Position numbers and translations under genes: made by a program. A stretch of 32,078 bases of DNA from Candidatus Woesearchaeota archaeon (GTDB lineage Archaea > Nanobdellota > Nanobdellia > Woesearchaeales > UBA10216), in NCBI GenBank assembly GCA_018303115.1, contig JAGVYT010000027.1, positions 1 to 32,078 of the forward strand. The letters are read 5' to 3'. Position 1 is the first letter of the stretch. Every line of letters begins with the position of its first letter. The notes beneath the pieces were generated by a model. The model was not told the DNA's origin, made no database searches, and saw only the letters and a list, made by a program, of their open reading frames with translations. Shown here piece by piece: positions 7,119 through 30,303 of the stretch.

Positions 7119-7258
7119 GTGCGGCGTTGTCCCGAATCCTGTTCCTGCTGTTGCTTCTGCACGCTCTTTTACTTCCTCCCTACCTAAAAGGCAAGGAGGG
7201 AGGAAGTAAAATGGAAGCGATAAACATGCGAGAAAGCTCTTTTAGGACAACGCCACAC
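7119..7258. repeat. Structured element with terminal inverted repeats (MITE-like or RNA)
   Basis: GGCGTTGTCC at 7123-7132 and its complement GGACAACGCC at 7245-7254 close the element; pairing extends to about 13 bp with one mismatch. Inside is a perfect 15-bp stem (7167-7181 with 7197-7211) with a pyrimidine-rich 5' arm and purine-rich 3' arm. GCTCTTTT occurs twice (7163 and 7236). It ends nine bases before the ferredoxin TATA box. It fills most of the 248-base gap between 7051 and 7300. It could be a miniature transposable element or a structured transcript; no clear target-site duplication is seen. Confidence 0.55.
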
Positions 7259-7644: not shown

Positions 7645-8348
7645 ATGCACAATCATTTGGCAAAACATTAAGAGTTTTTGTCAGTTATGCCAATAAGGAT
7701 AAGCTTCTAGCTGGGGCATTGAAGAAGTGTCTTGAACGTTTTGGCTTAGATGTGTTCCTTGCTCACGAAGACATTATGCCCACATTAGAATGGCAGAAAA
7801 AGACACTAAGTAAAATAAAGCAGACCAATGTGCTTATTGCTCTTCTGACAAACAATTTCAGGGATGCCGATTATACAGCCCAAGAAATTGGTGTTGCAAT
7901 CGCATTACAAAAACTCATTATTTCTCTTAAGGCAGATGTTGACCCATATGGTTTCATAAACAAATATCAAGCTTTTAAGTTTACTTATGATGAATCAAAA
8001 GATAGTGATGGTATTACAAGTTATGATTGCACTAAGTCGTGCGCAGAAATCATAAAAGTTCTTTCGTATTACAAGGAACATGCCTACCCCCTTAAGGGGA
8101 GCTTAATTAGGGCGTTAAGCAGCAGCGGGAATTTTCGCAATTCGAATGAGATAGCCGAATTACTGGATAAATTCAAAGGATGGGCACCTGCACAGCTTTC
8201 TATGTTAATGCGTAGTGGTATAGAAAACAGGCAAGTGTACGAAGCGCATGATTGCAAACAACTATTTAGAAAGCTTTTTGGAGAGTATGAGGGATATATA
8301 GATCTTAGCCTTAGAGATGAGCTTCTGGGCTTAATTGGTGAAGCGTAA
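7645..8348 (+). CDS. TIR-domain protein with an apparent N-terminal frameshift
   Basis: The main frame, open from 7644 to 8348, encodes a TIR domain: LRVFVSYANKDKLLAGALKK, LDVFLAHEDI, VLIALLTNNF and DYTAQEIGVAIA. The Glu in QEIGVA sits where the catalytic glutamate of NADase TIR domains is found. The main frame has no good start codon upstream of the domain. An ATG at 7645 is in another frame and stops at 7669-7671; one extra A in the A4 run at 7662-7665 would join it to the TIR frame (MHNHLAKTLRVFVSY). So either a base is missing from the assembly or the gene is frameshifted. A TATA-like CTTATAAATT lies at 7607-7616. The C-terminal 90 residues are helical and unrecognised. TIR proteins often act in defence; no partner gene is adjacent. 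Confidence 0.7.
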
Positions 8349-9351: not shown

Positions 9352-9394
9352 TAATTTTTCCCTCCCTTAAACTTGTTAAGGAGGGAGGAAATTA
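9352..9394. repeat. Pyrimidine/purine-arm hairpin upstream of purF
   Basis: The 5' arm TAATTTTTCCCTCCCTTAA pairs with the 3' arm TTAAGGAGGGAGGAAATTA (19 positions, two mismatches, three G-T pairs). The 3' arm shares AAGGAGGGAGGAA with the hairpin at 7167-7211. The role is unknown. Confidence 0.6.
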
Positions 9395-10979: not shown

Positions 10980-11666
10980 ATGAAAGCGACAGTGTTAACA
11001 CATGCAGGCATTGAAGGCCCGGGATTGCTGGAGGACATTTTGAAAGAAAGGGGCGTTAAATATGAAACTGTGGATGCAACTACACAAAAAATTCCTGAAA
11101 CAGATGTAATTATAGCAATGGGCGGGCCAATGAGCGCAAATGACAGTTACAGATGGCTAATAAGTGAACTTCAGGGAATAAGAGAACATGTTGATGGGGG
11201 AGGTTACTTTTTCGGAACATGCTTGGGCTCACAACTGCTTGCTAAAGCTATTGGAGGAAGTGTAAGAAAAGCGAAAATAAGAGAGATTGGCAGCTGCGAG
11301 GTGAAACTTACAGAAGGAGGGGTTAAAGATGAATTGTTTGCCGGGTTTGGAAACAGGTTGAAAGTGTTTCAATGGCATGGCGAAACATTCAACAGCTTGC
11401 CTATTGGAGCAGCTGTTATTGCCACAGGAAACGCAATGACTCAAGCTTTTAGATATAAAAATGCTTATGGATTGCAATTTCACCTTGAAGCAACCGAGAG
11501 AATGGTTATGGCTTGGGTAGAAGCTTATCATAACGAAGTGGAGGAAGTTCCTACAACTACTGATAAAGTAATTCAGGGATTTATAGAGAACAGCGACTAT
11601 TACCACGGCGCTGTAAACAGGATTTTTGGAAGATTCCTGGATACGGCTTGCAGGAAAAAAGAATGA
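10980..11666 (+). CDS. Stand-alone class I glutamine amidotransferase, function unassigned
   Basis: A 228-residue protein with a full class I triad: Cys81 in FFGTCLGSQLLAKAIGG, and His168 and Glu170 in YGLQFHLEAT. The fold resembles the GMP-synthase glutaminase domain and GuaA-like stand-alone amidotransferases. It is not PurQ, which is present later, nor the GuaA glutaminase, which is fused in the guaA gene. It has its own GGGGGT ribosome binding site, sits directly after purF and overlaps purD by an ATGA. Its place implies a purine-related task, such as feeding ammonia to an early step or hydrolysing a gamma-glutamyl compound, but no substrate can be named from sequence. Confidence 0.8.
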   Translation: MKATVLTHAGIEGPGLLEDILKERGVKYETVDATTQKIPETDVIIAMGGPMSANDSYRWLISELQGIREHVDGGGYFFGTCLGSQLLAKAIGGSVRKAKIREIGSCEVKLTEGGVKDELFAGFGNRLKVFQWHGETFNSLPIGAAVIATGNAMTQAFRYKNAYGLQFHLEATERMVMAWVEAYHNEVEEVPTTTDKVIQGFIENSDYYHGAVNRIFGRFLDTACRKKE

Positions 11667-12973
11667 AAGTGCTGGTTGTTGGCGGAGGGGCGAGGGAGCA
11701 TGCAATAGTTGATGCCCTGCTCTGCGGGGGTGCAGAAGTTTATTGTTTTATGCCAATGGTTAACCCTGGCATTAAAAAGGCTGCAAAAGGGTATGCGATT
11801 GGAAAGCTTGATGACAATGCAAGCGTTGTTGAGCTTGCAACAAAGAATGACATTAAGCTGGCTGTTATCGGGCCTGAAGCGCCGCTTGAGGCAGGAATGG
11901 CTGACGAGCTTGAGAAAGCAGGAATAGGCTGCGTAGGGCCGACAAGGGAACTGGCGCAGCTGGAGACAAGCAAGGGATTTACGCGAAATTTACTGCGGAA
12001 ATATAATATTGACGCTTCTCCCAAGTTCAGGATATTTGACAAGAACAATATAGGCGGGGCAGAAGCGTTTCTTAACGAGCTTGGAAGGTATGTTGTAAAG
12101 CCTGACGGGTTAACCGGCGGGAAGGGGGTTAAAGTTCTTGGAGAGCACCTCCAAACCAAAGGAGAGGCTCTTGCTTACTGCAGTAAAGTGCTTGAAACGC
12201 ATAAGTCTGTTATTGTTGAAGAGAAATTAGAAGGCGAGGAGTTCAGTTTGCAAACGCTTACTGATGGCAACAGCTTTTTACACTTCCCGCCTGTGCAGGA
12301 CCACAAAAGGGCATTTGAAAACGACACTGGGGCAAATACCGGAGGGATGGGAAGCTACTCAGACGCTAATTTACTGCTGCCGTTTTTGACTGAGGGCGAT
12401 GTTGAAGCAGCAAAGAAGACTACAGAACAGGTTAGTGCTGCAATAAAACAGGAACTAGGAAGCTACAAAGGAGTAATTTACGGCGGCTTCATCAAGACGT
12501 CCTCCGGAATCAAGCTGATTGAATACAATGCAAGGTTTGGAGACCCGGAAGCAATGAACGTTCTGCCATTACTGAAGACTAATTTTGTTGAAATCTGTAA
12601 AGCGGTTGTTGAAGGAAAATTGAGCGGGGTAAGTGCAGAATTTGACAATAAAGCTACGGTTTGCAAGTATGTTGTTCCTCAAGGATACCCTGAAAATCCG
12701 AAAGCAGGAAAGATAACAGTGCCAACCGACACAAAAGCCCTGATTTATTATGCATCTGTTGATGAAAAGGATGGCGGGATATGGACTACCAATTCAAGAG
12801 GCGTTGCTTTTGTGGGGATGGGCGATACAATAGGGGAAGCTGAACAGATTGCAGAGGATGCTGCCTCAAAAGTTACCGGGGCAGTTTACCACCGCAGGGA
12901 TATAGGAACAAAAGAGCTTGTGCAGAAAAGGGTTGAGCACATCAGGCAAATAACAGGAGGTAACGATGCATAG
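11663..12973 (+). CDS. purD: Phosphoribosylamine-glycine ligase (GAR synthetase)
   Basis: Joins phosphoribosylamine and glycine with ATP to form GAR. The 436-residue protein has the N-terminal VVGGGAREHAI, VIGPEAPLEAGMADELE, the ATP-grasp loop VVKPDGLTGGKGVKVL, GANTGGMGSYSDANLL and the metal-binding YNARFGDPEAMNVLP. The ATG at 11663 forms an ATGA overlap with the amidotransferase stop, which makes it the preferred start. It ends just before a row of hairpins separating it from the purN fusion. Confidence 0.96.
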   Translation: MKVLVVGGGAREHAIVDALLCGGAEVYCFMPMVNPGIKKAAKGYAIGKLDDNASVVELATKNDIKLAVIGPEAPLEAGMADELEKAGIGCVGPTRELAQLETSKGFTRNLLRKYNIDASPKFRIFDKNNIGGAEAFLNELGRYVVKPDGLTGGKGVKVLGEHLQTKGEALAYCSKVLETHKSVIVEEKLEGEEFSLQTLTDGNSFLHFPPVQDHKRAFENDTGANTGGMGSYSDANLLLPFLTEGDVEAAKKTTEQVSAAIKQELGSYKGVIYGGFIKTSSGIKLIEYNARFGDPEAMNVLPLLKTNFVEICKAVVEGKLSGVSAEFDNKATVCKYVVPQGYPENPKAGKITVPTDTKALIYYASVDEKDGGIWTTNSRGVAFVGMGDTIGEAEQIAEDAASKVTGAVYHRRDIGTKELVQKRVEHIRQITGGNDA

Positions 12974-12993
12974 CATCACAAAGGTGCTTGAGT

Positions 12994-13157
12994 GTCAAAA
13001 ACCGCCGGTCAGAGACCGGTGGCATGTGGTTTTTGACGCAAAGAAATGGAACATTTCTTGCGCACAAAATCTTCGATTTTGTTGCGCTCAGAATTCCACG
13101 AATATCATGGTTTTTGAGCACACAGAACCCCACTCATCAGAGATGAGTGGAATTCTG
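12994..13157. repeat. Row of tandem hairpins between purD and purN
   Basis: At least four perfect palindromes follow each other. (1) 12994-13003 with 13028-13037 (GTCAAAAACC), enclosing CCGGTC-AGA-GACCGG. (2) AAGAAATG-GAA-CATTTCTT at 13041-13059. (3) ACAAAATC-TTC-GATTTTGT at 13064-13082. (4) CAGAATTCCAC (13089-13099) with 13147-13157, competing with CCACTCATC-AGA-GATGAGTGG (13130-13150). The stems differ, but loops are mostly three bases and spacers are similar (GCGCAC, GCGCTC, GAGCAC). A similar row lies at 29801-29883. Confidence 0.8.
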
Positions 13158-13219
13158 TTGTTTAAAGAACACAGATACGCAGAACCTTCTGATGGAATAA
13201 TGCAGAGGGCAACACGCCA

Positions 13220-14488
13220 ATGACGCTAAAGCAGCTATACAAACCCGGAAATGACAAGATGAAAGTGGCTGCTTTCATGTCAGGCGCAGGCTCTAACCTG
13301 AGGAGAATCCTTGAAGCCCAGGGCAATTTTGAGGTTGTAATGATATTCTCTGACACTGCTGACGAAAGCAAGTGCAATGCCAAAAAGATTGCTGAAGAAT
13401 TTGGAATCAGCTATTATTGCAGTGATATCCGCGAATATTATGGCAGCAGGGGCTATGGCGACAGAAAAGACATGAACATCAGGAGAGAATATGACAAAGA
13501 GACTGCTAAGCTGCTGGAAAAGCACAAAGTTGATGTTGTTGTGCTTTGCGGGTATATGAGCGTTGTGAGCGGGAAGATTTGCGATAGGTATATGACGCTG
13601 AATGTTCACCCTGCCGACCTTAGAATTCTTGATAGCGATGGGAGAAGGCTGTACGCAGGATGCATGGGAGCAGGCTGCGTCAGGAAAGTCATTGAAAACA
13701 AGGGAACTGGGATGAGGAGCTCTACTCACATTGTGACCACTGAGCTTGACGGCGGGCCTGTGCTAATGGTTTCCGATGCCGTAGTGATTGACAGCAATGA
13801 CGAGCATGCACTGCTTGACAGGCTGAAAGAGCAGGGGGACTGGAAGGTTTATCCTGAAACTGTCAAAAGGCTTGCTGAAGGAAGGTTCTGGAGTGACGAC
13901 GGCGTTGTTATTGATATTGTTGAGGAAAAGCTGTTGCTGAGAAACAAGCTGAGAGAGCTAAGGGAGCGGATGAGTGATGAGGATGTTAAGAGCAAAAGCG
14001 GCGAAATAACAAAGAGGCTGTTGCAGCTGCGGGAATACGCAACTGCAAAGACTGTGATGTTTTACATGAGCACAAACAAGGAAGTGCGGACAGAAGCTGC
14101 GGTGAGGGATGCGCTTGCTGCACAGAAAAAAGTTGTTGTTCCAATCAGCGATTTGGACAATGAAAGGATACTGCCATCAAAACTTGAGTCGCTTGATGCG
14201 CTAAGGCCAGGGGCTTACGGCATACTTGAGCCAATTTTGAGGGAAGAGGTTAAGGCTGGCGAGATTGGGCTTGTGATTGTGCCAGGGCTTGCTTTTGATG
14301 AGGAAGGAAACAGGATTGGGTATGGAATGGGATTTTACGACAAGTTTTTGAAAAGGGTTTCAGGGAAAAAAATTGGCTTGGCTTACGAAATGCAGATAGT
14401 TGACAAGATAAGAACTGCAGAAAAGGACGTCTGTGTTGACAAAATAATAACAGAAGAAAGGGTAATTGATTGTGGGGTGGGAAAATGA
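13220..14488 (+). CDS. purN: GAR formyltransferase fused to 5-formyl-THF cyclo-ligase
   Basis: A 422-residue two-enzyme fusion. Residues about 14-225 are a PurN-type formyltransferase: [13 protein letters not shown], the catalytic Asn128 and His130 in LNVHPADL, and Asp177 in TTELDGGPV. Residues about 238-415 are a 5-formyltetrahydrofolate cyclo-ligase: [12 protein letters not shown], then [24 protein letters not shown]. The first part formylates GAR with 10-formyl-THF; the second reactivates 5-formyl-THF. I kept ATG 13220, preceded by AGAGGG; the ATG at 13259 is the alternative and removes 13 residues. The formyltransferase half has extra insertions compared with Escherichia coli PurN. It overlaps glyA by four bases. 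Confidence 0.88.
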
Positions 14489-29654: not shown

Positions 29655-29791
29655 GCGGGGATGGCAGAGCCTGGTCAAATGCGGCAGACTCAAGAGAGTT
29701 GAGTGGTGAGCGTCAAGCGATGATATGGTCCTCCACTAATGTGAAATCTGCTTCCTTAGTGGATACAGGGGTTCAAATCCTCTTCCCCGCA
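29655..29791 (+). tRNA. tRNA-Leu(CAA) with an intron of about 51 bases
   Basis: The acceptor arms GCGGGGA (29655-29661) and TCCCCGC (29784-29790) pair, with discriminator A at 29791. The anticodon stem is GCAGA/TCTGC with loop CTCAAGA, so the anticodon is CAA (29691-29693). A class II variable arm is present, and the T-arm is AGGGG-TTCAAAT-CCTCT. The intron runs from about 29695 to 29745, after position 37, the usual archaeal site. CTCAA of the anticodon loop can pair with TTGAG (29699-29703) and AGTGG with CCACT inside the intron, consistent with a bulge-helix-bulge substrate. CCA is not encoded. Confidence 0.92.
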
Positions 29792-29800
29792 TTAAATTGC

Positions 29801-29883
29801 CAAGAACACGCTCCGGGGCGTGTTCTTGAGCATGTGTCGGAAGCTTTAGCTTCCGAGCATCATCAGAAACCGAAGGTTTCTGA
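29801..29883. repeat. Second row of tandem hairpins, after tRNA-Leu
   Basis: CAAGAACACGC (29801-29811) pairs with 29818-29828. TCGGAAGC (29837-29844) pairs with 29849-29856. TCAGAAACC (29863-29871) pairs with 29875-29883 around the loop GAA. The spacers are GAGCATGTG and GCATCA, similar to the GAGCAC/GCGCAC spacers of the row at 12994-13157. A further half-stem CTCAGAAAC follows at 29886. Confidence 0.75.
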
Positions 29884-30024
29884 GACTCAGAAACGCTGGC
29901 AGCTTACCACCTGCTGAATCAAAGCGTTAATGCAGTTTCTGCCTACTACCACGACCATTTGTTTGCGCCAATAGAGAAAGCGGAAAAAGCAATGCGGATA
30001 CTGAAAGGTTTGCAGGAATCCTGA
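29884..30024 (+). pseudogene. Orphan open stretch, possible gene remnant
   Basis: One frame is open from a stop at 29881 to a stop at 30022 with no proper start codon. Its translation has protein-like content (LNQSVNAVSAYYHDHLFAPI then EKAEKAMRILKGLQES). I do not recognise the family. It may be the tail of a gene disrupted by the hairpin row. Confidence 0.2.
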
Positions 30025-30149: not shown

Positions 30150-30211
30150 CATTCCTTCCTGCCATTCTTCGGGTAAAGTCAACTATCGCGTGTTTCGTTT
30201 TCATTTTACTT

Positions 30212-30252
30212 CATTTCTCTCATCCTTACAAAGTCAGGGAGGAGAGGAAATG
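30212..30252. repeat. Pyrimidine/purine-arm hairpin upstream of the OB-fold gene
   Basis: CATTTCTCT (30212-30220) pairs with AGAGGAAATG (30243-30252) with one bulge. GGGAGGAGAGGAAA in the 3' arm resembles the arms at 7197-7211 and 9376-9394. Confidence 0.45.
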
Positions 30253-30292
30253 ACGCGGCATGCCACTGAACTTGACATTACTATTCTCCGAA

Positions 30293-30303
30293 ACCTATAT
30301 AAA
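30293..30303 (+). promoter_or_regulatory. TATA box of the OB-fold gene
   Basis: CCTATATAAAC is centred about 28 bases before the ATG at 30327, and no ribosome binding site is seen, so a leaderless transcript is expected. Confidence 0.65.

Follow-up and report, generated by a model that had tools for sequence, protein, structure and literature searches.

The purD-purN gap and its hairpin row

In the window, which is the whole stretch of 32,078 nucleotides of Candidatus Woesearchaeota archaeon DNA analysed here, the gene purD (11648-12973) is followed by a co-directional gene for a fusion of purN and 5-FTHF cyclo-ligase (13220-14488), and the gap between them is exactly 246 nt long (12974-13219), the length given in the original prediction. 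Two further features of the neighbourhood were seen upstream: a TIR_2-domain protein (7719-8348), which precedes the purine genes and lies beside two small minus-strand ORFs without Pfam matches, and a CCCTCCTTAAC-type inverted repeat (TTTCCCTCCCTTAAACTTGTTAAGGAGGGAGGAAA; 9358-9392) just upstream of purF.

The gap contains four perfect triloop stems of 6, 8, 8 and 9 bp on the plus strand, so that the claim of at least four perfect palindromes between purD and purN is borne out. A scan for triloop stems gave CCGGTC(aga)GACCGG (13005-13019), which is enclosed by an extra outer stem of 10 bp (12994-13003 with 13028-13037), and CCACTCATC(aga)GATGAGTGG (13130-13150), while AAGAAATG(gaa)CATTTCTT (13041-13059) and ACAAAATC(ttc)GATTTTGT (13064-13082) are interior hairpin modules that are found as the same modules at C23:22900-23019 on another contig of this genome. 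In 2000 shuffles of the 246 nt there were never more than two such stems, and among the 246-nt tiles of the window only the gap has four. The predicted RNA fold of the gap has a z-score of -8.4 against shuffles, and the single-stranded DNA folds of the element described below, taken alone, have z-scores of -8.7 and -7.6, one for each strand. The competing pairing that had been proposed within 13089-13157 exists as well and joins 13089-13106 with 13140-13157.

A strong RNA fold, an alternative pairing and a location between co-directional genes are what would be expected of a cis-acting RNA element of the purine operon, that is, a switch, a processing element or a stability element in the purD-purN mRNA, and the covariation of the stems reported below also speaks for this explanation. 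However, when the window and the gap were searched against Rfam, the row matched no family at the gathering score and gave a single chance match (E 0.78), and its copies, the junction in relatives and the counterparts of the alternative pairing, which are described in the following sections, all argue against it; we consider it very improbable.

Dispersed copies in the same genome

The genome searched comprises 993,512 bases on 45 contigs and is 96% complete, and the catalogue of copies is a lower bound drawn from pattern searches, model searches and selected stretches. A segment of 120 nt of the gap recurs with 98% identity on contig C23 beside unrelated genes, where the row runs on into further, other hairpins. 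The core CCGGTCAGAGACCGG occurs 13 times with at most two mismatches (once for the reversed control), and the right-end sequence TTCTGACATTTTA 16 times (0 for the control). The element copies are about 100 to 180 nt long or longer; their left structure begins with TCTAAAGAACCACC or TGTCAAGAACCACC and is followed by a variable interior of hairpin modules, then by the sharp right end TTCTGACA and then by TTTTA.

A covariance model of the left structure, R1, was built from nine seed copies, with the window copy and the copy flanking the transposase gene tnpA excluded. It recovers 22 copies in the genome, both held-out copies among them. Of the 22 left structures, 19 fall outside predicted ORFs, two overlap ORF predictions, and the remaining one flanks tnpA. 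Since copies stand beside unrelated genes, the hairpins are not specific to the purine operon, which counts against the cis-acting RNA explanation.

The tnpA gene and its flanking hairpin

The sole Y1_Tnp gene of the genome is located at C23:154-636 on the minus strand and encodes a TnpA of 160 aa (PF01797, 57.4 bits against a cut-off of 23) with the HUH motif NHVH and the tyrosine motif YIRKQ (Y---Q). Its best NCBIfam model is IS200/IS605 with 52.2 bits, slightly below the cut-off of 55, and in sequence it is related to transposases of known structure, 2FYX and 2XM3. Directly 3' of this tnpA is the hairpin CCGCCGGTCAGAGACCGGCGG, and the first hairpin of the window matches the structure abutting the gene. 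In the relative G010, a tnpA homologue with about 70% identity has the same end, and three G010 contigs terminate within identical copies of this end, as expected of a repeated insertion sequence. C-terminal tnpA fragments in G010 were considered as deletion derivatives and rejected, because the contigs end there and the fragments reflect assembly breaks in repeated copies. The more distant homologues of G032 and G057 (46-51% identity) have a similar outer stem and inner hairpin immediately 3' of the gene, so that the inner hairpin accompanies tnpA homologues of other Woesearchaeales as well.

When the tnpA flanks are taken together with the dispersed copies, pairing in the inner hairpin reaches 96%, double changes occur in 5 of its 9 pairs, and the covariation score is 0.40, compared with at most 0.22 for slid pairings. 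A larger set of 43 distinct R1 matches has 42 double-change cells as opposed to 9.8 in shuffles; these matches were aligned by the model and include its seeds, so that the counts lean towards structure, which the slide controls offset in part. Absence of stem covariation had been named in advance as grounds for abandoning the original prediction, and the stems do covary. What covaries, however, is a dispersed repeat that is linked to an insertion-sequence transposase, occurs at unrelated intergenic sites and is missing from the gap in relatives, which leaves the proposal of a purine-operon switch or processing element without support.

Anatomy of the window element

The left terminal structure of the window element (12993-13039, plus strand) consists of the outer stem 12994-13003/13028-13037 and an inner hairpin with the core GTC(aga)GAC. 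It has a counterpart of the same kind directly 3' of the tnpA gene (C23:122-186) and is the held-out R1 match of the window, with 32.8 bits compared with 76-88 bits for the best copies, so the window copy is degenerate. The right terminal structure (13089-13157, plus strand), recognised by its pairing and by a second R1 match in the window locus (L167:1638-1670, corresponding to window 13130-13162; 25.8 bits), has the outer stem CAGAATTCCAC/GTGGAATTCTG around the hairpin 13130-13150 and is the counterpart of CAGAATTTTCC...GGAAAATTCTG in other copies. The supposed competing pairing of 13089-13157 is therefore best read as the right-end stem of a mobile element, and the fact that other copies have an equivalent right-end stem again speaks against a cis-acting RNA element.

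The right end itself is presumed to lie, with an adjoining target-like TTTAA, at about 13158-13165 on the plus strand, a position that follows from the G010 right end ...GGAATTCTGATTAAA; the G010 element ends on the right in CCACCGGTCAAAGAACCGGTGGAATTCTGATTAAA, which resembles the right end CCACTCATCAGAGATGAGTGGAATTCTGTTGTTTAAA of the window element, and the target side of the window copy is a diverged, TTTAA-like sequence. Between this end and the first base of purN (13166-13219, plus strand) there may be a decayed module, CAGAACCTTCTGATGG. The window element thus measures about 172 nt (about 12993-13165), and it encloses no ORF of 90 aa or longer on either strand.

Insertion signature and host repeats

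The mode of insertion can be read from a second repeat family with the inverted ends GGCGTTGTCCTAAA, which contains the element in three copies (C7, C26 and C35) and lacks it in about 11. Empty copies of this host repeat read ATCGCTTCC directly followed by TTTTATACTTCC, and the filled copy on C35 reads ATCGCTTCC, then CTAAAG...TTCTGACA, then TTTTATACTTCC. There is no target duplication and TTTTA is kept, as established at the family level from empty and filled host repeats. TTTTA stands at 16 exact right ends and in the empty host sites; it abuts the right end, which corresponds to 5'-TAAAA^element on the strand on which tnpA reads forward. IS200/IS605 elements insert 3' of a fixed tetra- or pentanucleotide without duplication (PMC7290912, PMC5934647), and the absence of a duplication together with TTTTA at the right end fits this rule. 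The C35 copy has its left junction in common with the filled copy of a third repeat on C13; the left flank common to these two copies was considered as part of the element and rejected, as it belongs to the host repeat. A miniature inverted-repeat element (MITE) of a DDE transposon was likewise rejected for the hairpin element, which has neither terminal inverted repeats nor a target duplication.

The window itself carries both kinds of host repeat. A copy of the second repeat family with the inverted ends GGCGTTGTCC.../...TTTTAGGACAACGCC lies at 7123-7255 (about 20 copies in the genome, some with the hairpin element), and the third repeat (GTAAAGTCAACTATCGCGTGTTTCGTTTTC...) lies at 30172-30293, empty here and filled at the same place on C13.

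The purD-purN junction in relatives

The nearest named relatives of its purD mark the host as a Woesearchaeota archaeon. In G001, a genome of the same genus, purD overlaps purN, and in G002, also of the same genus, as well as in G011, G016, G017 and G018, both genes lie in a single open frame of 704-866 codons. In two further loci (L069, L070) the genes lie within a few tens of nucleotides of each other. The reading frame of purN in the window is still that of purD. None of the relatives in which the purD-purN junction was read has the element there, a further point against a cis-acting RNA element of this operon. Since close relatives have the two genes fused, overlapping or almost adjoining, the 246-nt gap is read as an insertion; two more distant loci (L067, L071), in which purD and purN are more than 1 kb apart, count against this reading. 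The relatives are too diverged to provide a base-exact empty site at purD/purN. On the simplest account, insertion of the element at the junction would have been followed by an adjustment of the genes, with a new stop and a new start. The earlier suggestion that the row splits the operon therefore holds in the literal sense that an insertion parted genes which are fused or adjacent in close relatives, but the purine-specific element it implied is unsupported. As a separate observation, the single purD-purN frame (L038 and L040-L043, several Woesearchaeales) points to a PurD-PurN fusion protein.

An element of mobile origin may later have been put to use, with the row stabilising or attenuating the purD/purN transcript or separating the translation of the two genes in the manner of repetitive extragenic palindromes (REPs). 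The inserted row still has stable hairpins and purN a start of its own, and a part in mRNA stabilisation or termination has been hypothesised for REPs (PMC3733652), which would suit such a role. However, the copy is degenerate and at this place unique to this genome, and hence there is no sign of selection to keep it here; a later use of this kind seems rather unlikely.

Interior modules

The pattern TCAGAA-N(3-20)-TTCTGA occurs at 59 places in the genome, compared with 2 for the control. The upper stem is fully complementary, with a loop of 3-4 nt, in 26 of the 34 distinct modules listed (shuffled mean 12.2, maximum 20 in 1000 shuffles). The modules follow one another in tandem, and the spacers between them are mostly 6 nt long (GCATGC and GCATCA, for example). 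This arrangement accounts for the unrelated stems with similar triloops and spacers that drew attention to the gap, although divergence from the TCAGAA foot is seen in the interior stems of the row in the gap itself. A similar tandem row is present in the window at 29794-29906, TCGGAAGC(ttta)GCTTCCGA, spacer GCATCA, TCAGAAACC(gaa)GGTTTCTGA, and another of its kind on contig C19. The row at 29794-29906 stands directly after a tRNA gene of 137 nt (29655-29791), which is identified by Rfam, missed by ARAGORN and probably contains an intron or a long variable arm.

G001 and G002, in which neither the R1 structure nor a TnpA of the C23 type was found, likewise have an excess of the modules (11 and 28, compared with 1 and 2), while the counts in most other relatives are near background. 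Because of this enrichment in genomes without the TnpA, the present TnpA need not be the sole agent of their spread; another factor, or a loss of TnpA in G001 and G002, may be involved.

Distribution in the phylum

At E<=1e-6, R1 has matches in 12 of 193 genomes of the phylum. The distribution is patchy, often with several copies in each genome (10 in G073, 8 in G140 and 7 in G154), and nearly all of the positive genomes belong to the same order. R1 matches below about 45 bits in other families were given no weight.

Origin of the hairpin row and comparison with known systems

The copies are dispersed and have sharp ends, one of which is like the end of tnpA, they were inserted without duplication, and their stems covary. 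The row in the purD-purN gap is very probably a degenerate, non-autonomous mobile element derived from IS200/IS605 that was inserted at the purD/purN junction. The degeneracy of the window copy and the enrichment of the interior modules in G001 and G002 weigh against this origin. Its two ends would be hairpin structures of the kind that a Y1 (HUH) TnpA recognises in single-stranded DNA, and its interior would consist of further tandem hairpin modules shuffled between copies. The C23 TnpA or a past relative of it may have mobilised the copies through a single-stranded intermediate. The 246-nt gap would then be an insertion scar and not a conserved regulatory leader, and the element would probably have no dedicated role in purine regulation. 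A suspected purine RNA switch thus becomes a mobile-element insertion, and the locus illustrates one route by which fused or overlapping genes were separated in a DPANN genome.

Among known systems, the closest likeness is to the PATEs, the palindrome-associated transposable elements of Haloquadratum walsbyi (PMC3119063), which are also archaeal, too short for a transposase gene and bounded by near-terminal palindromes of the IS605 type, lack terminal inverted repeats and target duplications, and are often found together with other mobile repeats. The element described here has palindromes near both termini, the left one matching the tnpA-flanking hairpin and the right one resembling the end of the G010 insertion sequence, and it is too short for a transposase and, at the family level, free of target duplication. 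It differs from PATEs in its mosaic interior of tandem hairpin modules, its Woesearchaeota host and its source of TnpA, which is a single IS200-like gene. With IS200/IS605 elements such as IS608 and ISDra2 (PMC5934647, PMC7290912) it shares a HUH/Y1 TnpA, hairpins at the ends and insertion 3' to a fixed tetra- or pentanucleotide, here a pentanucleotide, without duplication. In contrast to these, the window element carries no gene and has tandem interior hairpins, and the target is 5'-TAAAA as opposed to TTAC for IS608 and TTGAT for ISDra2.

The third comparison is with REPs and their mosaic clusters (BIMEs), which are associated with TnpA_REP (RAYT) proteins (PMC6006769, PMC2817692, PMC8266576). 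Dispersed intergenic palindromes, mosaic clusters and a single Y1 transposase gene flanked by the same palindrome are common to both, while the archaeal host and the defined, insertion sequence-like ends set the present element apart. A true archaeal REPtron, in which a domesticated, single-copy TnpA_REP-like protein maintains rows like those of REPs and BIMEs, would agree with one tnpA among many dispersed palindromes and with tandem mosaics that have constant TCAGAA feet and variable, self-complementary tops. We nevertheless regard it as doubtful, as the TnpA is class 1-like in its size (160 aa), its Y---Q motif and its IS200/IS605 NCBIfam score (52.2 bits, cut-off 55), the end of the G010 homologue is repeated as in an insertion sequence, and the ends are insertion sequence-like with a pentanucleotide target. 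By inspection, the feet are TCTAAAG/TGTCAAG and TCAGAA and not the 5' GT[AG]G foot of REPs, and the C23 TnpA has YIRKQ, of the class 1 type, and not the Y--NP motif of TnpA_REP classes 2 and 3 (classes according to PMC6006769). Only subclass 1.1 (IS200-like) TnpA_Y1 has been reported from Archaea (PMC6006769), and we found no description of such an element for Woesearchaeota in the open literature. An archaeal counterpart of the bacterial REPtron/BIME system can be put forward tentatively: one IS200-like TnpA would maintain and shuffle rows with constant TCAGAA/TTCTGA feet and varying, self-complementary upper stems, so that structure rather than sequence would be kept and rows would be built module by module from single-stranded intermediates.

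Because neither a GT[AG]G foot nor TnpA motifs of the REP type are present, the element is filed as a PATE-like derivative of IS200/IS605 that works in part like a BIME. With one small TnpA, two defined ends, a TAAAA-type target and a mosaic of modules, it offers a compact system for testing the relation between archaeal IS200-type elements and bacterial REPs.
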